From the NCBI GenBank assembly GCA_020444545.1, contig JAHLKT010000003.1, positions 186,001-250,000 of the forward strand: a stretch of 64,000 nt of DNA. The letters are read 5' to 3'. The notes below the pieces were generated by a model. The model did not search any database, was not told where the DNA came from, and saw nothing but the letters and a program-made list of their open reading frames with translations. Position 1 is the first letter of the stretch. Every line of letters starts with the position of its first letter. The position numbers and the translations under genes were made by a program. This stretch comes from Desulfarculaceae bacterium (GTDB taxonomy: Bacteria > Desulfobacterota > Desulfarculia > Desulfarculales > Desulfarculaceae). Shown here piece by piece: positions 7,066 through 18,450 of this stretch.

Positions 7066-8205
7066 GTGTCCAGTCAAGATCCGCAAATACTGGCCCTCCA
7101 CCTCAGCAAGCCCGGGGGCGAGCGCCTGCGGGCCATGGTCCAAGGCGCCAGCCTGGGCAACCTGCTCGGCCTGGAGTCCGCCGCCGAGGAATTCGAGCGC
7201 AAGGCGGTTCAGCTTCAGCCCGAAGTGATGCTGGTGGAGTTCAATCCCGACGAGGCGGGCATGAGCGAGATGCTCACCCGGCTCCGGCGCCACGTGCCCC
7301 GGGGGTCGGTGGTGGCCTGGGCCCAGACCCTGGCCCCGGAGGCGATCCTGTTGGCCATGCGCCTGGGTGTGCGCGAATACCTGCCCACCGAGGCGGACGG
7401 CTCGTCCCTGGCCGAGGCGGTGCAGCGGCTCATGGCCAGCCAAGGCGCCGGTGAGCAGGCCCAGGGCCATCTGCTGGGGGTAATGGGCGTCAAGGGCGGC
7501 GTGGGCACCAGCTCCCTGGCCCTAAGCCTGGCCTGGGTGGCCAGCCAGAGCACCAGCGCCCGGGTGGCCCTGGTGGACCTGGACCTGGCCAGCGGCGACC
7601 TGGCCGCCCTGGTGGACCTGGAACCCACCCGCACCATGCTGCACGTGGCCGAGGAGTACGAGCGCCTGGACAGCCTGTTGATGGACAGCTTCCTGGCCGA
7701 GGTGGCCCCGGGGCTGCGCCTGCTGGCCGCGCCGGGCGACGCGGTGACCGCCGAGGAGGTCAAGGGCAGCCACGTGGAGCGCGCCCTGGGCTTCCTCCTG
7801 GCCGACCACTCCCTGGTGGTGGCCGACCTGCCCCCCCGGGTGGATGAGGCCTGCCTGGCCGCCCTGGACCGGGCCAAGCTGCTGCTGTTGGTCACCGAGC
7901 CCACCATCCTGGGCTTGCGGGCGGCCAAGCGCGCCCTGGAGCTGTGCCGCAGCCTGGGCCGCGAGGACGACAGCCTGGGCCTGGTGATCAACCGGGCCGG
8001 TTCCAAGCAGAGCGTGTCGGCCAAGGAAGTGGAGCACGTGCTCAAGGTGAAGCCCCTGGCCGTGCTGCCCAACGAGACCCCGGTCCTGTTGGAAGCGGCC
8101 AACTCCGGCCGCCCGGCCGCCCGCCACTGGCCCCGGGCCAAGTGGTCCAAGGCGGTGTCCGCCATGGTCACGGACCTGTTCAGCGGCAACGGAGATGAGC
8201 AATGA
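7066..8205 (+). CDS. cpaE: CpaE/TadZ-type pilus localisation ATPase
   Basis: This MinD/ParA-related protein is thought to position the Tad assembly machine at the inner membrane. Its GTG start follows a strong AGGAGG. The first about 125 residues form an atypical receiver-like domain, as in TadZ. The ATPase part starts at about residue 138 with the deviant Walker [16 protein letters not shown], which ends Gly-Thr-Ser, and continues with [16 protein letters not shown]. The stop overlaps the ATG of cpaF (ATGA), suggesting coupled translation. Confidence 0.9.
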
Positions 8206-9554
8206 GCCTGCGCGCCAGACTGGGAGTGGCGGCCATGAGCTCCGGCGGCCAGGAGCGCCAGCGGGACTATGCCCGCGAATCGGCCCTCCAGGAGCTGAAG
8301 GCCCGCATCCACTACAAGGTCATCGAGTCCCTGGACCTGTCCATCCTCACCAACACCGACGACCTGCAAGCCGAGGCGGACCTGGAAGAAGCCATTCGCC
8401 TGGTAGTGGCCGGCGAACCCGACCCCATGAGCGAGGTGGAGCGGGAGCTGTTGGCCCGCGAGATCAAGCACGAGGTCATGGGCCTGGGCCCCTTGGAGCC
8501 GCTGTTGGCCGACGACAGCATCACCGAGGTTCTGGTCAACAGCTTCGACCACGTGTTCGTGGAGCGGGGCGGCCGCCTGGAGCAGATACCCATCCGCTTC
8601 CGGGACAACGAGCACCTGCTCAAGATCATCGACAAGATCGCCAGCGCGGTGGGCCGGCGCATCGACGAGTCCAGCCCCATGGTGGACGCCCGCCTGGCCG
8701 ACGGCTCCCGCGTCAATGCCATCATCCCGCCCCTGGCCCTGGACGGCCCGGCGCTGAGCATTCGTAAGTTTGCCCGCGACCCTCTCAAGGTGGACGACCT
8801 GGTGCGCCTGGGCTCCTTCAGCGCCCAGACCGCCAAGTTCCTGGAGGCCTCGGTCAAGGCGCGGCTGAACATGCTCATCTCCGGCGGCACCGGCACCGGC
8901 AAGACCACCTTGCTCAACGTGCTCAGCTCCTTCATCCCGCACCACGAGCGCATCGTGACCATCGAGGACTCGGCCGAGTTGCAGTTGCAGCAGGAGCACG
9001 TGGTGCGCCTGGAGACCCGCCCGCCCAACATCGAGGGCATGGGCGAGGTGGCCATGCGCGACCTGGTCAAGAACAGCCTGCGTATGCGCCCCGACCGCAT
9101 CGTGGTGGGCGAGGTGCGCGGCGGCGAGGCCCTGGACATGATGCAGGCCATGAACACCGGCCACGACGGCAGCCTGACCACGGTGCACGCCAACAGCGCC
9201 CGCGACGCCATCAGCCGCCTGGAGACCATGATCTCCATGGCCGGCCTGGACATCCCGGACAAGGCCATCCGCCAGCAGGTCGCCAGCGCCATCCAGATCG
9301 TCATCCAGGTAAGCCGCCTGGCCGACGGCTCCCGCCGCGTCACCAGCGTGCAGGAGGTCACCGGCATGGAGGCCGACACCCTGACCATGCAGGAGATCTT
9401 CCGCTTCAACCAGACCGGCATCGACGAGCGCGGCCGGGTGACCGGATACTTCGGCCCCACCGGCATCCGCCCCCGCTGGAGCGACCGCATCGCCAGCTTC
9501 GGCATCGGCCTGGACGCCGAGCTCTTCGGCGAGGAACCGCGAGGCGCGGCATGA
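8202..9554 (+). CDS. cpaF: Tad secretion ATPase CpaF/TadA
   Basis: This type II/IV secretion-family hexameric ATPase powers pilus extension, and in Tad systems also retraction. The 450-residue protein has an N-terminal domain (about 1-180), Walker [14 protein letters not shown] at about residues 226-238, an Asp box ([12 protein letters not shown]), Walker B ([16 protein letters not shown]) and a His box ([13 protein letters not shown]). All expected motifs are intact. It overlaps cpaE and tadB by 4 bases each. Confidence 0.96.
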
Positions 9555-10519
9555 TCTGGGGATTCACCGCCCTGATTTTCCTGAGCCTCTTGGGCGCGGC
9601 CTGGGCGGTGTTCAACCTGGTCTACGCGGGCAAGACCGGGCGCGAGGAGGCCTTCCGCCGCCGCCTGGCCGCCCTGGAGACCGACGAGACCGCCGCCACC
9701 GCCGCGGCCCGGGTCTATTTCCGCGACACCGCCTACAGCACCATCCCCTACCTGGACCGGCTGCTGGCCAGCCTGCCCAACGTGAGCGACCTCCAGCTGC
9801 TGCTCCACCAGGCGGGCACACCCTGCAACCTGGGCACCCTGGTGCTGGTCAGCGGGGTGCTGTTCAGCATCGGCCTGCTGCTGGGGCTTATGGACGGCTC
9901 CCTGGGCATGGGCCTGCTCTTGGCCGTGGGCGGGGGTCTGCTGCCGGTGTTGTGGCTGCGTTTTCTGCGCAAGCGTCGCCTGGCCGCCTTTGAGGAGCAG
10001 TTCTCCGAGGCGGTGGACTTGATGGCCCGGGCCCTTCGCGCCGGCCACTCCTTCGGCTCGGGGCTCAAGATGGCCTCTCAGGAGATGGAGAACCCGGTGG
10101 CCGAGGAGCTGGCCCGCACCTTTGAGGACTACTCCTTCGGCAAGGGCATGGAGGACGCGCTGAGCGACCTGGTGAAGCGGGTGGGCCTGCAAGACGTGAA
10201 GTTCTTCGCCACCGCGGTGGCCCTGCAACGCGAGATCGGCGGCAACCTCACCGAGATCCTGGACAACATCGGCCATATCGTGCGGGGCCGCTTCGCGCTC
10301 AAGCGCCAGGTGAAGGCGCTGTCGGCCGAGGGCCGCATCAGCGCGATCATCCTGTGCCTCATGGCCCCCGGCCTGCTGGGGGCCTTGTGGTTTTTGAGCC
10401 CCAACTACCTGAGCCTGTTGTTCGAGCATCCCATGGGCAAGACCCTGCTCATCACCGGCGGCGTGTTCCAGGGCATGGGCATCCTGGTGATCAAGAAACT
10501 CATCAACCTGAAGGTGTGA
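9551..10519 (+). CDS. tadB: Tad inner-membrane platform protein TadB
   Basis: This GspF-family integral membrane protein (322 residues) forms, with TadC, the platform on which the CpaF ATPase acts. It has a hydrophobic N terminus, a pair of transmembrane segments around residues 95-140, the T2SS-F cytoplasmic domain ([22 protein letters not shown] through [14 protein letters not shown]) and a C-terminal hydrophobic pair. It starts inside the last codons of cpaF. Confidence 0.93.
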
Positions 10520-10521
10520 GC

Positions 10522-11475
10522 ATGGAACAGGCAAGCAACCTGAGCGGCAATACCCTGGCCATCGTCATCGGCCTGGGCTTCGGCCTGGCCGTGCTGCTGG
10601 TGCTGGCCGCGGTGGGCTCGGTGGTCATGCGCCGCGAAGAGCCCACCCAGCGCCGCCTGCGCGGCATGCTGGGCAGCGAGCCCAAGCCCAAGAACTCCCC
10701 GGCCAAGCGCCAGCTCAAGCAGGTGATCATGGGCCTGCTGGGCCGCCTGGCCAAGCCGGCCCGGCCCCGCCAGGACTGGCAGGCCAACCAGATCCGCACC
10801 AAGCTGTTGCAGGCCGGCTTTCAGGCCCCCAATGCGGTGAACACCTTCCTGGGCTTCAAGGTGGCCCTGTTGATCGTCTTCCCCCTGGCGGTGCTCATCA
10901 GCCCCATCACGGGCAAGGTGGGCAACCTGCAACTCATGCTCTCGGTGGTGGGCGCGGCTTGCCTGGGCTTTTTCCTGCCCCAGTTCATGCTGGAAAGCCG
11001 CATCCGCTCCCGGCGCAAGGCCGTCACCCGCGAGCTGCCCGATGTCCTGGACCTGCTGGTCATCGCGGTGGAGGCGGGCCTGGGCCTGGACCAGGCCATC
11101 CGGCGGGTGGCCGACGAGGTCTCGGTGTCCAGCCCCACCCTGGGCTCGGAGTTCAACCTGGTCTCCCTGGAGATGCGCGCCGGCATCCCCCGCCCGATGG
11201 CGCTTCGGAACCTGGCCCAGCGCTGCGGGGTGGAGGAAGTGAGCAGCCTGGTGGCCATGCTCATCCAGGCCGACCGCTTCGGGGTGAGCGTGGGGCGCTC
11301 GCTCCGGGTGCATTCGGACACGGTGCGCACCAAGCGCCGCCAGCAGATGGAGGAGGCCGCGGCCAAGATTCCTCTCAAGCTGCTGTTCCCGGTGCTTTTC
11401 ATGATCTTCCCGGCAATCATGGTGGTTATGGCGGGTCCGGCGGTTATCCGCGTAAGCCAGAACCTGCTGAATTAA
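10522..11475 (+). CDS. tadC: Tad inner-membrane platform protein TadC
   Basis: This is the second GspF-family platform protein (317 residues from ATG 10522, three bases after the tadB stop). It has an N-terminal transmembrane segment ([19 protein letters not shown]), a middle hydrophobic pair, and the T2SS-F domain with [24 protein letters not shown] and [42 protein letters not shown], as in TadC. An ORF extending further upstream in this frame lies inside tadB and was rejected. Confidence 0.93.
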
Positions 11476-11486
11476 GGAGGGCGGTC

Positions 11487-13079
11487 ATGCCCAAGAACAA
11501 GCCGATACTGTTCCTCGGCGCGGCCCTGGCCGCGGGAGCCCTGATGCTGGCCACGGGTTGCGCCTCCACCAAGGACCCGGGCGCGGCCCGCTGGCTGCAA
11601 CGCGGCGAGGCCGAGCAGCTCCTGGCCGCCCAGGCGGCCCGGGCCGAGATCGACCCCGACCCGGACAAGGTACCCATGGAGGCAAGCGCCATGGAGGCCC
11701 AGGGCGACGTGATGGCCTCCCAGGGCGCGCCCTGGACCGCCATGAACCAGTACCGCCTGGCCCTCCGGGAAGCCAAGGGCAAGAGCAAGACCCGCCTGGA
11801 AGGCAAGATCGCGGGTCTGGACCTGCGCACCGGGCGCTTCGAGGTGGCCCGCGACGGCTTTGCCAAGCTGACCAAGGCGCATCCCGGCCAGGCGGTGTTC
11901 TGGCAGGGGCTGGGCCTGGCCCAGATCGGGCTCAAGGAAATGCCCGCGGCCGAGGCCTCCCTCACCCGCGCGGTGAACCTGGACCCCTCCCTGTGGCGGG
12001 CCCAGAACCTCCTGGGCGTGATCTACAACCAGGCCAAGCAGCCCAAGAAGGCCGAGGCCGCCTTCCGGGCCGCCCTGGTCAGCAAGCCGGGTAACCCGGC
12101 CCTGTTCAACAACCTGGCCCTTTCCCAGATCATGCTGGGGGACTATCAGGGCGCCGAGGCCAGCCTGCGCCGGGCCCTGTCCCTGAACCCCGAGCACAAG
12201 AAGGCGGCCAACAACCTGGGGCTCTTGCTGGTGAGCATGGGGCGCAACCAGGAGGCCTTCCAGACCTTCGCCTCGGCCGAGGGCGTGGCCCAGGCCCACA
12301 ACAACATGGGCGTGCTCCTGGCCTGGCGGGGAGAGCCCATGCAGGCCCAGCACCAGTTCAAGGCCGCCTTGCAGGCCCTGCCCCGCTACTACCCCATGGC
12401 CGCGCGCCATCTGGACCAGCTGGGTGAGCGTCCCGAATCCCCGCCCAGCCGCATGAGCGCCCGGCCCATGGTGCCCCTGGCCGGCCGGAGCAGCTATAAG
12501 GCCCGCGCCTCGGCCAAGCCCAAGGCGGCCAAGCCCAAGCGCCGCGCGGCCGCCAAGCCCAAGTCCAAGACCGTGGCCAAGGCCACCGCCCCGGCCAAGC
12601 CCGCTCCCAAGCCCGTGGCCAAGTCCCCGGTCAAGCCCGCTCCGGTCAAGCAGGCCAATGGCGCTCCCCAGGCCGCGGCAGCCCCCGCCCCCGCGGTTTC
12701 TGGCGCCAAGCCCGCGCCCGTTCCCAAGCCCGCGCCCCTGACCAAGGAGCAGCGCATCGCCCGCGACAAGGCCCAGGCCCAGGCGGAAGCCAAAGCCAAG
12801 GCCAAGGCGGCGGCCGAGGCCCGAGCCAAGGCCCAGGCCCAAGCTAAGGCCAAGGCGGAAGCGGCGGCCAAGGCCAAGGCCGAGGAAGAGGCCAAGGCCA
12901 AGCCCACGGCCCCGGACCAGGGCGTGCGCTCCGGCCGGCCGGCCGTGGCCCAGCCCAAGGCCACCGCCCGCGCGCCCCAGGGCCTGTGGATCCAGCCCGA
13001 CGGCACCATGGCCTACGGCGCCGCCCCCAGCGGCACCCAGGGCTACGGCGTGGTCTTCGGCGCCTCTCCCCGCGACTGA
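11487..13079 (+). CDS. tadD: TadD-like TPR lipoprotein with long Ala/Lys/Pro-rich tail
   Basis: This is the last gene of the pilus operon; its ATG at 11487 follows TAAGGAGGGCGG. The 530-residue product has a lipoprotein signal peptide (lipobox LATGC, Cys about residue 26), then several tetratricopeptide repeats (about residues 85-300) typical of TadD, which helps place the secretin. From about residue 330 the sequence is low complexity: Pro/Lys/Ala, then a KAKA/QAQA helix-like stretch (about 430-475). It ends with QGLWIQPDGTMAYGAA. The tail is unusually long for TadD and could bind cell wall. Confidence 0.85.
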   Translation: MPKNKPILFLGAALAAGALMLATGCASTKDPGAARWLQRGEAEQLLAAQAARAEIDPDPDKVPMEASAMEAQGDVMASQGAPWTAMNQYRLALREAKGKSKTRLEGKIAGLDLRTGRFEVARDGFAKLTKAHPGQAVFWQGLGLAQIGLKEMPAAEASLTRAVNLDPSLWRAQNLLGVIYNQAKQPKKAEAAFRAALVSKPGNPALFNNLALSQIMLGDYQGAEASLRRALSLNPEHKKAANNLGLLLVSMGRNQEAFQTFASAEGVAQAHNNMGVLLAWRGEPMQAQHQFKAALQALPRYYPMAARHLDQLGERPESPPSRMSARPMVPLAGRSSYKARASAKPKAAKPKRRAAAKPKSKTVAKATAPAKPAPKPVAKSPVKPAPVKQANGAPQAAAAPAPAVSGAKPAPVPKPAPLTKEQRIARDKAQAQAEAKAKAKAAAEARAKAQAQAKAKAEAAAKAKAEEEAKAKPTAPDQGVRSGRPAVAQPKATARAPQGLWIQPDGTMAYGAAPSGTQGYGVVFGASPRD

Positions 13080-13153: not shown

Positions 13154-14998
13154 CTAGAACTCTGCCCTGAGGCCCAAGAAGCCGGACAGACCCAAAGTGT
13201 TGTAGCCCTGTATCTCCACGTAGTCCTCGTCGAAGAGATTGATGACGTTGCCGTAGACGCTCAGCCACTTGGTGAGCTTGTAGGTGGCCGTGGCGTTCAC
13301 CGTGATGTAGGAGTCCACCTGGCTGGTGTTGGCAGCGTCGGTGTAGCGGTCGCCCACGTACAAGGCCCAGACCCGTATGTTGAGCCTGTCGTTCATCAGG
13401 GGCAGGCGCACGCCCAGGGTGCCCTTGTCGCGGGGGTTGTAGGCCAGCTCCTTGTCGGTGCTCTCATCCTGGGCGTCGGTGTAGGTCCAGGAGCCGTTCA
13501 CCTCCAGCCAGGAGCAGATCATGGCCGAGGCGAAGAACTCCAGGCCCTGGCTCTTCACCTCGTCCAGGTTCTCGTACTTCCAGGTGTTCATATCGAAGTT
13601 GATCAGGTTGTCGGTCTGGATGTTGAAATAGGTCAGCCCCAGCTTGACGCGCTGGTTCCACAAGGTCTGGGTAACGCCCAGATCCCAGCCCTTGCTCTTC
13701 TCGGGCTCCAGTTTTTGGCTGCCGTAGGGGCTGTAGCGCTGGTAGAGGCTGGGCGCCTTGAAGCCGGTGCCGTAGGTGCCTTTGAAGGTGGTGCCGCTGG
13801 CCGCGATGGTGTAGGAGGCCCCCGCCCGCCAGGTCACCTGGGCGTCATAGTCGTCGTTGTTGTCGTTGCGCACCCCGCCCAGCAGGTAGAGCCCGTCCAG
13901 GATCTTGAGCTGATCCTGCAAGTACAGGCTCATGGTGTCCGCGGTCTTCTTGCCCACCGAGTCATAGGTGGTGGTGTAGTCGCCCTGCTCCTGCTGCCAC
14001 TGCGCCCCCACGGTCACCGTGTTGATGTCCTTGTAGAGCAGGTTGTGCCGCCACTCGGCGGTGGTCAGGTAGGAGTTGTAGTCCGAGCCGTCCTGGTAAT
14101 CGTTGGCCACCGAGCCGTAGGACACGGTGAACTTTTGGTTCCACCAGGAGAAGGGCGCGTTGGTCACGCCCAGGATGCTGGTGTAGGAGGTGGTCTTCAC
14201 GTTGTCGTTGGTGTCGCCCTGCTTGCCGTTCACATAGCCGTCGTAGTCGCTCTTGGCCTGGTTGTAATAGCCGATGAAGTAGATCTCGGTGTTGTCGTTG
14301 ATGTCGAAGCCCACCCGGCCGTTGAACTGGTAGGAGTGGTAGGCGTCGTCCTCGCTGCCCGCCTTGATCTTGGAGATTCCATCGGTGTTTATGCCGGTGC
14401 CGGCCACCATGAAGTTGAAGCGGTCGATCTGGCCCTGGGCGCCCGCGTTGCCCTGGAAGGTGTTGTGCGAGCCGTAGCCTACCGTGGCCCAGCCGGTGGG
14501 GTCGCCCTGGCCGCGCTTGGTGATGATGTTCACCACGCCGGCCATGGCGTCGGAGCCGTAAAGGGTGGACTGGGGCCCCTGCACCACCTCCACCTGGCCG
14601 ATGCCGCCGGTGAGCAGGTTGGCGATGTCAAAGGCGCCGTTGGTGGAGATGGGGTCGGCCATGCGCACCCCGTCCAACATGAGCATGGTCTGCCCGGACT
14701 GGGTGCCCCGCATGGTCAGGCTGGTGGTGCCGCCAAAGGGGCCGTTACTGCGAATGTACACGCCGGGCACGTCGCGCAGGGCGTCGGCCAGGTTGAACTG
14801 GGCCTTTTCCTTGATCTCCTGGTCGCTGACCACGAAGGTGGTGGAGGGGACCTGGTTCATCTCCTCCTCGGTCATGGTGGCGGTGACCACCACATCGCTT
14901 TGGTGCACCGTCTTTTTCTTGGCCTTGTCTTCCGCCCCGGCCAGGGCGGGGGCCACACACATGAGGCCCGCCAAAATGGGAACCAGAATCTTACGCAT
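13154..14998 (-). CDS. btuB: TonB-dependent vitamin B12-type receptor (BtuB-like)
   Basis: This outer-membrane TonB-dependent transporter probably takes up cobalamin or another corrinoid. The 614-residue protein has a signal peptide (about 1-22), a TonB-box-like segment (DVVVTATM), a plug domain (residues about 45-155, with ALRDVPGVYI and GPQSTLYGSDAMAGVVNI), a beta-barrel, and ends in aromatic Phe. Length matches BtuB. The substrate assignment rests on the two cobalamin riboswitches upstream and the corrinoid synthesis genes cbiA and cobQ. A terminator follows. The start has a good site, GGAAGGACATAACC. Confidence 0.92.
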   Translation of the reverse strand: MRKILVPILAGLMCVAPALAGAEDKAKKKTVHQSDVVVTATMTEEEMNQVPSTTFVVSDQEIKEKAQFNLADALRDVPGVYIRSNGPFGGTTSLTMRGTQSGQTMLMLDGVRMADPISTNGAFDIANLLTGGIGQVEVVQGPQSTLYGSDAMAGVVNIITKRGQGDPTGWATVGYGSHNTFQGNAGAQGQIDRFNFMVAGTGINTDGISKIKAGSEDDAYHSYQFNGRVGFDINDNTEIYFIGYYNQAKSDYDGYVNGKQGDTNDNVKTTSYTSILGVTNAPFSWWNQKFTVSYGSVANDYQDGSDYNSYLTTAEWRHNLLYKDINTVTVGAQWQQEQGDYTTTYDSVGKKTADTMSLYLQDQLKILDGLYLLGGVRNDNNDDYDAQVTWRAGASYTIAASGTTFKGTYGTGFKAPSLYQRYSPYGSQKLEPEKSKGWDLGVTQTLWNQRVKLGLTYFNIQTDNLINFDMNTWKYENLDEVKSQGLEFFASAMICSWLEVNGSWTYTDAQDESTDKELAYNPRDKGTLGVRLPLMNDRLNIRVWALYVGDRYTDAANTSQVDSYITVNATATYKLTKWLSVYGNVINLFDEDYVEIQGYNTLGLSGFLGLRAEF

Positions 14999-15028
14999 GG
15001 TTATGTCCTTCCCGCGAAGTTCACGGGC

Positions 15029-15178
15029 GGGATGGGTCTTCCGGCTCGGGGCATCCTACCGGCCCGCCTTCCCACCGTCCGCCGGGACGGCAGTGGCTTG
15101 CTAATGGGCTTTCGTTCCCCTCACGGCTGCGGGGCAGCGGGCGAATCTCACGCCACTTCCTGTGACATCCCACCTGGG
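15029..15178 (-). ncRNA. Cobalamin riboswitch, proximal copy
   Basis: On the minus strand the btuB leader contains the B12-box core: CGCTGCCCCGCAGCCGTGAG, AAGCCACTGCC, GGTGGGAAGGCGGG, AGGATGCCC and GAGCCGGAAGACC, in the right order. Just after the aptamer, CCCGC (15027-15031) can pair with GCGGG (15011-15015), which touches the ribosome-binding site. This suggests control of translation initiation, which is inferred from the fold. Confidence 0.92.
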
Positions 15179-15232
15179 TTGTACGAGGCTCGCGCCTCCT
15201 TTTTGGATTGGAGCCCACGCCGGGGCGGGCCC

Positions 15233-15268
15233 GAAAATAAAAAACCCCCGTCCAATCATGGACGGGGG
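15233..15268 (-). terminator. Intrinsic terminator after the distal cobalamin riboswitch
   Basis: The minus strand reads CCCCCGTCCATGATTGGACG plus four more G, then TTTTTTATTTTC: a 10-bp GC-rich stem (15245-15268) and a U-tract. It lies about 100 bases downstream of the distal aptamer and upstream of the proximal one, so it can serve as a transcriptional expression platform or a plain terminator. Confidence 0.9.
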
Positions 15269-15365
15269 GATTGCACCCAGCTTTCTTGGTCTCCCCTTCG
15301 GAACTCCGGTCCGCGAAGGGCGGCCGCCACCGGTCACAGGCCGGTGATTAAGCTCCGGGCGGAGT

Positions 15366-15525
15366 CGGCAGGTCTTCTGGCTCCCGGTTCATCCTCTGGC
15401 CGCGCCTTCCCACCGCGCTTAGGCGCGGCAGTGGCTTTAGTGCAGCCTTTGTCCCCGGTCACAGCGGCGGGACCGCGACGGTTTCGCACCGTCTTCCCAT
15501 ATTAAGCCACAGTGGCACCGGCTCC
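15366..15525 (-). ncRNA. Cobalamin riboswitch, distal copy
   Basis: This is the second, upstream cobalamin aptamer on the minus strand. It has GGTGCC near the 5' end, GGGAAGACGGTGCGAAACCG, GGTCCCGCCGCTGTGACC, AAAGCCACTGCC, GGTGGGAAGGCGC, AGGATGAACC and GAGCCAGAAGACCTGCC, which is a near-textbook match. A sigma-70-like promoter lies just upstream. Between it and the terminator are several competing short hairpins, such as CACCGG/CCGGTG. Confidence 0.94.
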
Positions 15526-15540
15526 GCATATGTAGCCTCC

Positions 15541-15569
15541 TTCCTATCCCAACCGGCAAATGGAGTCAA
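15541..15569 (-). promoter_or_regulatory. Sigma-70-type promoter driving the riboswitch-btuB leader
   Basis: On the minus strand TTGACT (15569-15564) and TAGGAA (15546-15541) are separated by exactly 17 bases, placing transcription start near the 5' end of the distal aptamer. It lies in the 55 bases between the cobQ stop and the aptamer. The -35 box is strong; the -10 box is only moderate. Confidence 0.6.
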
Positions 15570-15580
15570 GCCCTATATGA

Positions 15581-17089
15581 TTAGGCGCGGGGCTCCAGGA
15601 GGCCGTCCAGATTCAGATGGGCCTCCAAATGGTCGGCCAAGAGGTCGAACTGCCTCTCGCGGAAGGCGGCGTAGTCGCCGGACAGGGGCGCGTCCCCGCC
15701 CCGGGCCCAGGCCAGGAGCGCGGCGCGCAGGGCGTCGTTGTCCAGGATGCCGTGAAGGTAGGTGCCCACCACCCGGCCCTCGGGGCTCACCGAGCCCTCG
15801 TCCTGGTCCACGGCATTGCCCAGCACGCTGGCCAGGCGGAAGGCGGGACGCGGCGCGGCCAGGGCACGGGTGAGGCCCATGTGGATCTCGTAGCCCCGCA
15901 TCTCGCCGGGCGCGGCAAAGGGCAGGCCGTCGGCGCAGCGGGCCAGCACCCGGGTGGTGGTTTTGTCGCCGGCCATGGTGGTGGCCACGGGCAGCAGGCC
16001 CAGGCCGGGCTCATCGCCGGGCGGGCCCTCCACCCCGTCCGGGTCGGCGATGCTCTCGCCCAGGAGCTGGTAGCCCCCGCACAGGCCCAACACCTTGCCC
16101 CCCAGGGAATGGAAGGCCTTCACCGCCTGGTCCAGGCCGCAAGAGCGCAGCTTGGCCAGGGCGGCCAGGGTGTTTTTGGTGCCGGGGAGTATGAGCAGGT
16201 CCAGCCCGGCCAGCTCCTCGGGCCGCTCCAGCCAGGAGAGCTCCACCCCTTCGGTGGCGGCCAAGGCGTCGAAGTCGGTGTAGTTGCTTATGTGGCTGAG
16301 CCGCACCACCCCCACCCGGACCGCCCCGGCCCGCGCGGCCAGCTCGCCGCGCTCCAGGGCCACGCCGTCCTCCTGGGGCAAGAGGATGTGCTCGAAGCGC
16401 GGCACCAGGCCCAACACCGGCACCTTGCCCTTTTGGGCGATGTAGTCCATTCCCTCGCGGAAAAGCTCGGGGTCTCCCCGGAACTTGTTGATGATCACCC
16501 CGCCCACCAGGGAACGCTCGGCCGGGGTCATCAGGTCCAGGGTGCCCAGCACCTGGGCGAAGACCCCGCCGGTGTCGATGTCCGCCACCAGGATCACCCT
16601 GGCCCCCACCCGCTCGGCCAGGGGCAGGTTGACCAGGTCGCTTTTCTTCAGGTTCACCTCGGCGCAGGAGCCCGCCCCCTCCATGACCACCACCTGGTGG
16701 GCCGCGCTCAGGCGATCGAAGGCCTGCGTCACCGTGTTGAGCAGTTGGGGCTTGAGGGCGTAGTAGGCCTTGCCCGCGTAGTTGCCCATGGGCTTGCCCA
16801 TGAGCACCACCTGGGAGTTGGTCTGGCCGCCCGGCTTGAGCAGGATGGGGTTCATGTCCACCGAGGGGGCCAGCCCGGCCGCCTGGGCCTGGGCCACCTG
16901 GGCCCGGCCGATCTCCAGCCCCTCGGGGGTGATGCCCGAGTTCAGGGCCATGTTCTGAGCCTTGAAAGGAGCCACGTCCACGCCGCGTTGCTTGAGCCAG
17001 CGGCAGATGCCCATGGTGATGACGCTCTTGCCCACGTGGCTGCCGGTGCCGGCCACCATGATGGGGCGGTAGAGGGGGCGCTGGTTCAT
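15581..17089 (-). CDS. cobQ: Cobyric acid synthase CobQ/CbiP
   Basis: This enzyme amidates the b, d, e and g carboxylates of adenosylcobyrinic acid a,c-diamide using glutamine and ATP. The 502-residue protein starts at ATG 17089, which overlaps the cbiA stop (ATGA); a longer frame reaching 17197 lies in cbiA and is rejected. It has a dethiobiotin-synthetase-like N domain with GTGSHVGKS (about 14-22) and DPGGQTNSQ-like substrate residues (LKPGGQTNSQ). The C-terminal glutaminase domain has the nucleophile in LGLCGGYQLLG (Cys about 337) and the catalytic His in GTYLHGIL (about 446). Confidence 0.96.
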   Translation of the reverse strand: MNQRPLYRPIMVAGTGSHVGKSVITMGICRWLKQRGVDVAPFKAQNMALNSGITPEGLEIGRAQVAQAQAAGLAPSVDMNPILLKPGGQTNSQVVLMGKPMGNYAGKAYYALKPQLLNTVTQAFDRLSAAHQVVVMEGAGSCAEVNLKKSDLVNLPLAERVGARVILVADIDTGGVFAQVLGTLDLMTPAERSLVGGVIINKFRGDPELFREGMDYIAQKGKVPVLGLVPRFEHILLPQEDGVALERGELAARAGAVRVGVVRLSHISNYTDFDALAATEGVELSWLERPEELAGLDLLILPGTKNTLAALAKLRSCGLDQAVKAFHSLGGKVLGLCGGYQLLGESIADPDGVEGPPGDEPGLGLLPVATTMAGDKTTTRVLARCADGLPFAAPGEMRGYEIHMGLTRALAAPRPAFRLASVLGNAVDQDEGSVSPEGRVVGTYLHGILDNDALRAALLAWARGGDAPLSGDYAAFRERQFDLLADHLEAHLNLDGLLEPRA

Positions 17090-18450
17090 GCGGCATACTC
17101 CCGGGCCTGAGCCACCAGGGCCGGGGCCAGGGCGGGGTTGGAGCCGAAGTGCAGGTGCAGGTAAGAGGCCAGGACGTTGCCTTGCGTCAGGCCCCAAGGC
17201 TGGCCCGCGCCGTGCCCCGGGCTCTCCACGGCGTAGGAGTCGGCCAGGGCCTCCGCGCCGGAGATGATCTCAGAGTAGTGGAACTCGTGGCCCCGGGCCT
17301 CGCTTCCGGCCGGGCCCAGGACGGTGTCTTGCTTGAAGCGCAGGGCGCGGTAGCCCAGGGAGGCCAGGCGGGGCAACATGCGGGTGCGGATGGGCAGCAG
17401 CCCGGCCATGGGCCAGGCGCGTCCCTGAAGATCCTCCAGCTCTTGCCCCAGATACATCATGCCTCCGCACTCGGCGTAGATGGGCAGGCCCGCCCGCCCG
17501 GCCTCGGCGATCTCCATGGCCAGGGAGCGGTTGGCCGCCAGGGCCTCGGCGGCCAGCTCGGGATAGCCCCCGCCCAGATAGAGCCCGCCCAGGTTGGGCG
17601 GCAGGGCCGCGTCGCCCAGCGGCGAGAAGAAAACCAGCTCCGCCCCGGCCGCCTCCAGGCGGCGCAGGTTCTCGGGGTAATAAAAACAGAAAGCGCGGTC
17701 GCGGGCCACCCCCAGGCGCACCGGCGGCCCGGCGGGGGCGGGCTCGGGCATGGGCGGCGTCAGGGCCAGCTCGGGCAAGCCGTGGATGAGCGCCGTGAGG
17801 TCCAGGCCCTCCTCCAGCCAGTCGGCCAGGGCGTCCAGCTCGCTTGGCCCCAAGCCGTGCTCCTCCGCGGTGACCAGGCCCAGATGGCGCTCGGGCAGGC
17901 CGCCCTCCGCGCGGCGCAGCAGGCCCCCGGCCCAGGGCAGCGAGGGCGCGGCCTCCAAGGCGGCGCGGGCCAGCTCGCGGTGGCCCGGTCCGGCCAGGTT
18001 GTTGGCCAGGAGCCCGGCAAAGCCGAGGCCGGGATCGAAGCGGGCGAAACCCAGGGCCAGGGCCGCGATGCTGCGGGCCATGGCCGAGGCGTCGGCCACC
18101 AAGAGGATTGGCAAGCCCAGCAGCTTGGCCAGCTGGGCGCTGGAGCCCTGTTCCGTGGCCGGGCCGCTGCCGTCGAACAGGCCCATGGCCCCCTCCAGCA
18201 CCGCCACCTCGCCGCCGGCGGCGTGGCGGGCGAAAACGGCGCGGTTCTCCGTGGGCGAGAGCATCCAGGTGTCCAGGTTGTGCGAGGGGCGGCCGCAGGC
18301 CAGGGCGTGGTGGCCGGGGTCGATGAAGTCCGGGCCCGCCTTAAAGGGCCGGGCGTCCATGCCCCGGCGCTTGAGCGCGGCCAACAGAGCCAGGGTCACG
18401 CTGGTCTTGCCCACCCCGCTGGAGACGCCGGCGACGCAGATTCCCTTCAT
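17086..18450 (-). CDS. cbiA: Cobyrinic acid a,c-diamide synthase CobB/CbiA
   Basis: This enzyme amidates the a and c carboxylates of cobyrinic acid, the step before CobQ and adenosylation. The 454-residue protein begins with the P-loop region VSSGVGKTSVTLALL (about 9-23) and FKAGPDFIDPGHH, and has a C-terminal class I glutaminase-like domain with AECGGMMYLG (Cys about 328) and a family-typical HFHYSE-like segment (GHEFHYSEI). It overlaps cobQ by 4 bases and lies 13 bases after the preceding sensor-like gene, so the three may be one transcription unit. In anaerobes this is the cobalt-early pathway. Confidence 0.95.
   Translation of the reverse strand: MKGICVAGVSSGVGKTSVTLALLAALKRRGMDARPFKAGPDFIDPGHHALACGRPSHNLDTWMLSPTENRAVFARHAAGGEVAVLEGAMGLFDGSGPATEQGSSAQLAKLLGLPILLVADASAMARSIAALALGFARFDPGLGFAGLLANNLAGPGHRELARAALEAAPSLPWAGGLLRRAEGGLPERHLGLVTAEEHGLGPSELDALADWLEEGLDLTALIHGLPELALTPPMPEPAPAGPPVRLGVARDRAFCFYYPENLRRLEAAGAELVFFSPLGDAALPPNLGGLYLGGGYPELAAEALAANRSLAMEIAEAGRAGLPIYAECGGMMYLGQELEDLQGRAWPMAGLLPIRTRMLPRLASLGYRALRFKQDTVLGPAGSEARGHEFHYSEIISGAEALADSYAVESPGHGAGQPWGLTQGNVLASYLHLHFGSNPALAPALVAQAREYAA

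Follow-up and report, generated by a model that had tools for sequence, protein, structure and literature searches.

Two cobalamin aptamers with different expression platforms in the leader of a btuB-like gene of Desulfarculaceae

The leader and its genes

The window, which is the whole stretch of 64,000 nucleotides (64 kb) of a Desulfarculaceae bacterium analyzed here, carries on its minus strand two full-length cobalamin aptamers (Rfam RF00174) in one leader 5′ of a btuB-like gene. An Rfam scan of the 64 kb gave no other RNA-family match. A preliminary description made from the letters alone had proposed two tandem cobalamin riboswitches before btuB and had named a covariance search on both arms as a check. 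Both aptamers pass that search, scoring 116.1 and 69.2 bits (the gathering score is 31.5) and aligning to model positions 1-189 including the accessory domain. The order on the minus strand is promoter, aptamer 1, terminator, aptamer 2, a hairpin holding the Shine-Dalgarno (SD) sequence and btuB, with cobQ in front, and the gap of 162 nt between the aptamers consists of the terminator platform and spacer only, with no gene inside. The features are the following.

17086..18450, minus strand: cobB/cbiA (NF002204, 483 bits)
15581..17095, minus strand: cobQ, cobyric acid synthase, directly upstream of the leader (NF001989, 594 bits)
15541..15569, minus strand: sigma-70-like promoter TTGACT-N17-TAGGAA, with conserved hexamer positions and 17-base spacing
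15350..15537, minus strand: cobalamin aptamer 1 (RF00174, 116.1 bits, E 2e-28)
15328..15346, minus strand: P13-like hairpin CACCGG-CCUGUGA-CCGGUG after aptamer 1 (-9.9 kcal/mol, z -2.6)
15266..15296, minus strand: candidate antiterminator, GGGGA (15296-15292) with UCCCC (15270-15266), a putative pairing
15239..15268, minus strand: intrinsic terminator CCCCCGUCCAUGAUUGGACGGGGG followed by U6, stem 15268-15245 (scan and folding)
15014..15187, minus strand: cobalamin aptamer 2 (RF00174, 69.2 bits, E 5e-15)
15174-15166 and 15034-15026, minus strand: P1 arms of aptamer 2 (Rfam fold)
15008..15019, minus strand: SD-sequestering hairpin CUUC[GCGG]GAAG, found in 8 of 8 species, with a compensatory change
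15006..15010, minus strand: Shine-Dalgarno AAGGA, 7 nt 5′ of the ATG (read from the sequence)
13154..14998, minus strand: btuB-like gene for a TonB-dependent receptor of 614 aa, ATG at 14998 (family models)

The interval 15029-15569, to which the leader had been assigned, is too short, as aptamer 2 continues for 15 bases past its end, and the SD hairpin, the SD sequence and the ATG also fall outside it. For the downstream gene, the highest-scoring family is TIGR01779, whose 295 bits fall short of the cutoff of 599.7, and PRK10641 gives 248 bits; we call the gene BtuB-like on the cobalamin switches and the cobQ neighbor beside its best family match. The proposed position of the leader just after cbiA and cobQ agrees with the family models listed above. 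The further claim that the switch controls uptake and not synthesis is right for the btuB leader itself and needs two qualifications. First, a ThiC-like gene elsewhere in the genome, maybe of Bza type, also has a cobalamin switch in front of it. Second, no further terminator was found in the window sequence or by the scan between cobQ and aptamer 1, and cobQ transcription would therefore enter the btuB leader.

The product of the ThiC-family gene behind this switch (locus L005, 1792-3099, on contig C2) scores above the ThiC cutoffs and also matches BzaB, of B12 lower-ligand synthesis, below cutoff; the gene may encode ThiC (thiamin) or a lower-ligand (Bza-type) enzyme. On contig C4 of the same genome (L002, 1836-3185), a cobalamin switch with a terminator lies 5′ of a gene for a periplasmic substrate-binding protein with weak BtuF/IsdE similarity. 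In the window, a gene run on the plus strand at 8202-13079, convergent with btuB, is of Tad pilus type by appearance (CpaF-like ATPase, TadB/TadC-like proteins and a TPR protein).

Two platforms kept across one genus

The leader was compared in eight species of the genus, the window and seven further genomes with a btuB-like orthologue of 66-84% protein identity. All eight have both aptamers, a terminator following aptamer 1 and the end of cobQ ahead of the leader; in one genome (G007), the leader spans two contigs, whose shared overlap of about 50 bases reads through both aptamers. The separate expression platforms that had been proposed, with a terminator after the first aptamer and a ribosome-site hairpin at the second, are seen in the anatomy of 8 of 8 species, and the proposed order from promoter to btuB is likewise conserved in all of them. 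In a sister genus (G008), only one aptamer, with a terminator, lies 5′ of btuB. Outside the genus, no other tandem, defined as two hits on the same strand less than 500 nt apart, was found in the same family or order; this comparison covered 14 genomes with 80 RF00174 hits.

Aptamer 1 has a mean pairwise identity of 75% in the genus and scores 110-123 bits in the members scored. Its terminator has 10 pairs followed by U6 in the scan, folds with -22.2 kcal/mol (z = -4.6 versus shuffles) and is kept in all genus members of the alignment. The platform runs from the P13-like hairpin, whose stem pairs are conserved in the orthologues, through a variable second hairpin to a conserved block, GGGGAGAYCAAG...GGGUGCARUCCCC, that leads into the terminator, and from GGGG up to the terminator the mean pairwise identity is 81%, compared to 51% for the preceding part. 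Judged by eye, GGGGA is able to base-pair with UCCCC in the 5′ arm of the terminator, and this makes it a natural antiterminator candidate.

Two side observations concern this first platform. The GGGUGCARUCCC block is present in several switches of the family (15296-15245 in the window; L045, L006, L019 and other family loci), is nearly invariant and resembles the aptamer's own L4 T-loop (GGUGCAAAUCC); it may act as a T-loop decoy or form an antiterminator hairpin. The L13 loop of aptamer 1 (15349-15328) reads CCUGU in the window, and the genus, as judged by eye, departs from the CGNGG of other switches of the family. This loop has drifted in the tandem genus although its aptamer and terminator remain conserved, and its kissing contact may thus be weak.

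Aptamer 2 scores far below aptamer 1 on the Rfam model and has a mean pairwise identity of 78% across the genus. Its covariation was assessed in the eight-species alignment over 36 pairs picked from the SD hairpin and the fold given by Rfam, where 98.9% of the cells are paired and nine pairs, including one of the SD hairpin, show double changes. None of 500 shuffles reached the observed covariation, and sliding the structure by 1-3 columns gave at most three double-change pairs versus nine in register, controls that are supportive and are not probabilities because the structure was picked with the sequences in view and the species are related. Compensatory changes fall in P1, P4, P6, P7 and the P11-like stem. 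P1 departs from the consensus of Rfam, with CAUCCCGCC where UGCC... is usual, yet it covaries (U-A/G-C, G-C/A-U). By these compensatory changes, aptamer 2 is a folded RNA under selection.

By anatomy, the second platform is a ribosome-site hairpin without a terminator, and the first is a terminator. The hairpin, CYUC[NNGG]GARG with 4 bp, holds most of the Shine-Dalgarno sequence and can form in all eight species, compared to 11% of shuffled tails. Most species have CCUC[GAGG]GAGG or CCUC[GCGG]GAGG and one has CCUC[UAGG]GAGG; the window's own CUUC[GCGG]GAAG represents one compensatory change from C-G to U-A, the single such change among these related species. An "RBS-adjacent hairpin" had been proposed with its bases unnamed, and the proposal stands for this conserved SD-pairing stem. 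It does not stand for the GC hairpin CCCGUGA/UCGCGGG (-14.5 kcal/mol in the window), which is stronger than the SD hairpin, competes with it and is the best-folding one in the window; it is absent beyond the nearest relatives and was rejected as a regulatory element. By eye, GCGG in L13 of aptamer 2 can pair with a C-rich L5 (CCGC; CCCC) in the window, and in several relatives only two or three pairs, GG(G) with CC(C), can form.

Origin of the two halves and recurrence in the phylum

Aptamers 1 and 2 share 55-60% identity. In trees built on short alignments of about 190 positions, with some weak support values, aptamer 1 groups with terminator-type paralogues from its own genome and family, and aptamer 2 groups with translational btuB switches of Nitrospirota, Nitrospinota and Desulfuromonadia, with a support of 0.96-0.99 for the wider clade. 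A tandem duplication was rejected on the low identity and the different clades. These clades, together with the single terminator-type aptamer of the sister genus, indicate assembly from two lineages. As read from the trees, the tandem is put together by recruitment and not by duplication.

Recurrence was sampled in 395 genomes of the phylum and by a scan of GTDB contigs. Among 30 btuB loci scanned in the phylum, 27 have at least one cobalamin aptamer and six have two. Four of the six (L165, L180, L182 and L192) clearly have tandem leaders, in which a terminator occupies the gap and no terminator is seen 3′ of the second aptamer; L165 is identical in sequence to L090 (Geobacter sp.), and the two are one genome. 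The contig scan added a fifth such leader, L096 (Desulfuromonadaceae), so that tandem leaders in total are found in five numbered families, including the genus studied, plus L096. A good SD hairpin is present in L180, L165/L090 and L096; that of L182 is A/U-rich and further from the start, and L192 has a weaker one, a CGAGG loop motif without a clear stem. The second aptamers of these tandems fall into at least three clades in short trees, which suggests that the layout probably had several independent origins.

Three other loci were left out as tandems. An ORF resembling tonB sits between the two cobalamin switches of L101, a gene-sized stretch separates those of L177, and in L178 the first match is partial and the gap has no terminator. 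In L101 (1521-2834), the two switches have similar scores and flank the TonB-like ORF, the second lying 5′ of a btuB-like gene; energizer and receptor each have their own cobalamin switch. Of the two cobalamin switches 5′ of btuB in L177 (3440-4429), one is of terminator type and the other has an SD hairpin; with the gene-sized stretch between them, the arrangement is possibly an intermediate of tandem assembly or loss. In L166 (916-1174), the cobalamin aptamer upstream of btuB lies 10 bases 3′ of the end of a tRNA gene.

A proposed two-step OFF switch and its alternatives

The directly observed aptamers, terminator and SD hairpin, in an order that is conserved and recurs, make it probable that the leader of btuB acts as a bi-mechanism OFF switch built of two cobalamin riboswitches in tandem. 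The ligand, the OFF direction, the kissing loop and the antitermination in this proposal are drawn from known cobalamin riboswitches. Transcription from the promoter between cobQ and aptamer 1 would give a leader RNA in which aptamer 1 folds first. With adenosylcobalamin (AdoCbl) or a related corrinoid bound to aptamer 1, the terminator at 15268-15245 would form and transcription would stop, while in the ligand-free state GGGGA/UCCCC would hold the 5′ arm of the terminator and transcription would continue. Aptamer 2 would then fold in the read-through transcripts, and when bound, kissing of L5 with L13 (GCGG) would hold CUUC[GCGG]GAAG, hide the SD sequence and leave btuB untranslated. An L5-L13 kissing loop has been described for cobalamin switches (PMC9600662), and SD sequestration upon AdoCbl binding is the mechanism of E. 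coli btuB (PMC11162775).

The preliminary description had expected two sensors in series to steepen or broaden repression. The simplest model, with two OFF switches acting independently one after the other, narrows the response range (10-90%) from 81-fold to 40-fold at equal affinities and gives 75-fold when the affinities differ 100-fold; the steepening would thus be modest. Larger gains are expected from multiplied, deeper repression and from silencing of mRNA already made, which would give two control times, an argument that has been made for SAM-II/SAM-V tandems (PMC9481103).

The two aptamers might instead sense different corrinoids or very different concentration ranges, so that the leader would be a NOR gate over two forms of B12. 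The distinct lineages and the identity of only 55-60% speak for this, as does the fact that cobalamin switches vary in corrinoid selectivity and can be semiselective or promiscuous (PMC9600662). Yet both aptamers align to the full RF00174 model with its accessory domain, no sequence feature predicts a different ligand and a broad response is common among cobalamin switches (PMC9600662); we consider this reading decidedly unlikely. A wider form, which we hold to be rather unlikely, is that two independently evolved sensors differing in corrinoid selectivity or affinity give NOR-like control of the importer and were assembled repeatedly in the phylum, always with the terminator first and the ribosome site second. 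If true, such two-input control would save transcription first and then silence mRNA already made.

The TTGACT and TAGGAA hexamers keep their position and 17-base spacer in seven aligned genus members, and in the eighth by contig reading; a strict promoter scan did not report them because the -10 element is weak. No consistent promoter was found in the spacer between the terminator and aptamer 2 of the aligned genus members, where the best matches have 6-7 of 12 positions at unrelated places, and the spacer itself has a mean pairwise identity of 39% with 33% gaps, compared to 78% in aptamer 2. A promoter of its own for aptamer 2 was therefore rejected, and the simplest transcript most likely has its start just 5′ of aptamer 1, so that aptamer 2 is transcribed only by read-through past the terminator. 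It is accordingly quite improbable that aptamer 2 alone regulates btuB from its own promoter, with aptamer 1 and its terminator mainly ending or controlling cobB-cobQ transcripts: cobQ read-through would indeed end at that terminator, as no other was found before it, but the conserved promoter sits between cobQ and aptamer 1.

It is also very improbable that aptamer 2 controls the amount of mRNA, through Rho-dependent termination or decay after a translation block, more than translation itself. AdoCbl-dependent Rho termination does follow SD sequestration in E. coli btuB (PMC11162775), but it would be a possible consequence of such sequestration and no alternative to it. That one aptamer is a functionless relic, as the low RF00174 score of aptamer 2 and the drifted L13 of aptamer 1 might suggest, is almost certainly wrong given the 78% identity and compensatory changes of the aptamer 2 core and the 110-123 bits of aptamer 1 in the genus.

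Tandem AdoCbl riboswitch doublets were reportedly described by Sudarsan in 2006. Sherlock 2022 counted 26 of them (PMC9481103), and they make up under 1% of leaders (PMC2258182). Like the btuB leader, they are two same-class cobalamin riboswitches in series that are expected to be independent, and they were listed among pseudo-cooperative systems in a review in which not every tandem was classified by mechanism (PMC9481103); unlike the doublets so listed, the btuB leader has a translational second platform. SAM-II/SAM-V and SAM-II/SAM-II tandems share with it the terminator first, the ribosome site second and the same ligand for both halves (PMC9481103), but differ in ligand and aptamer class, the btuB leader having two cobalamin aptamers of distinct lineages. 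The E. coli btuB AdoCbl riboswitch resembles the platform of aptamer 2, with the SD sequence in a stem-loop before btuB, but has a single aptamer without an upstream terminator switch (PMC11162775). Same-ligand tandem OFF switches are also known for TPP, in thiSGHFE of Desulfovibrio (PMC545781, noticed in deltaproteobacteria) and in tenA of B. anthracis (as cited in PMC12121620); both copies there act via terminators and on that other ligand, unlike here. A literature text search for a bi-mechanism tandem together with cobalamin returned only PMC9481103; subscription papers lay outside its scope and an earlier mention there is possible.

Both kinds of switch, AdoCbl doublets and the bi-mechanism principle (for SAM) are already known. 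With the btuB leader, the bi-mechanism layout known from SAM switches would extend to cobalamin, in a form that is conserved across one genus and recurs 5′ of btuB in several families of the phylum. Furthermore, it indicates that the halves of a tandem need not be duplicates. Since btuB has single-switch and tandem leaders in related organisms, what is gained by a tandem OFF switch, an old question, becomes directly testable.
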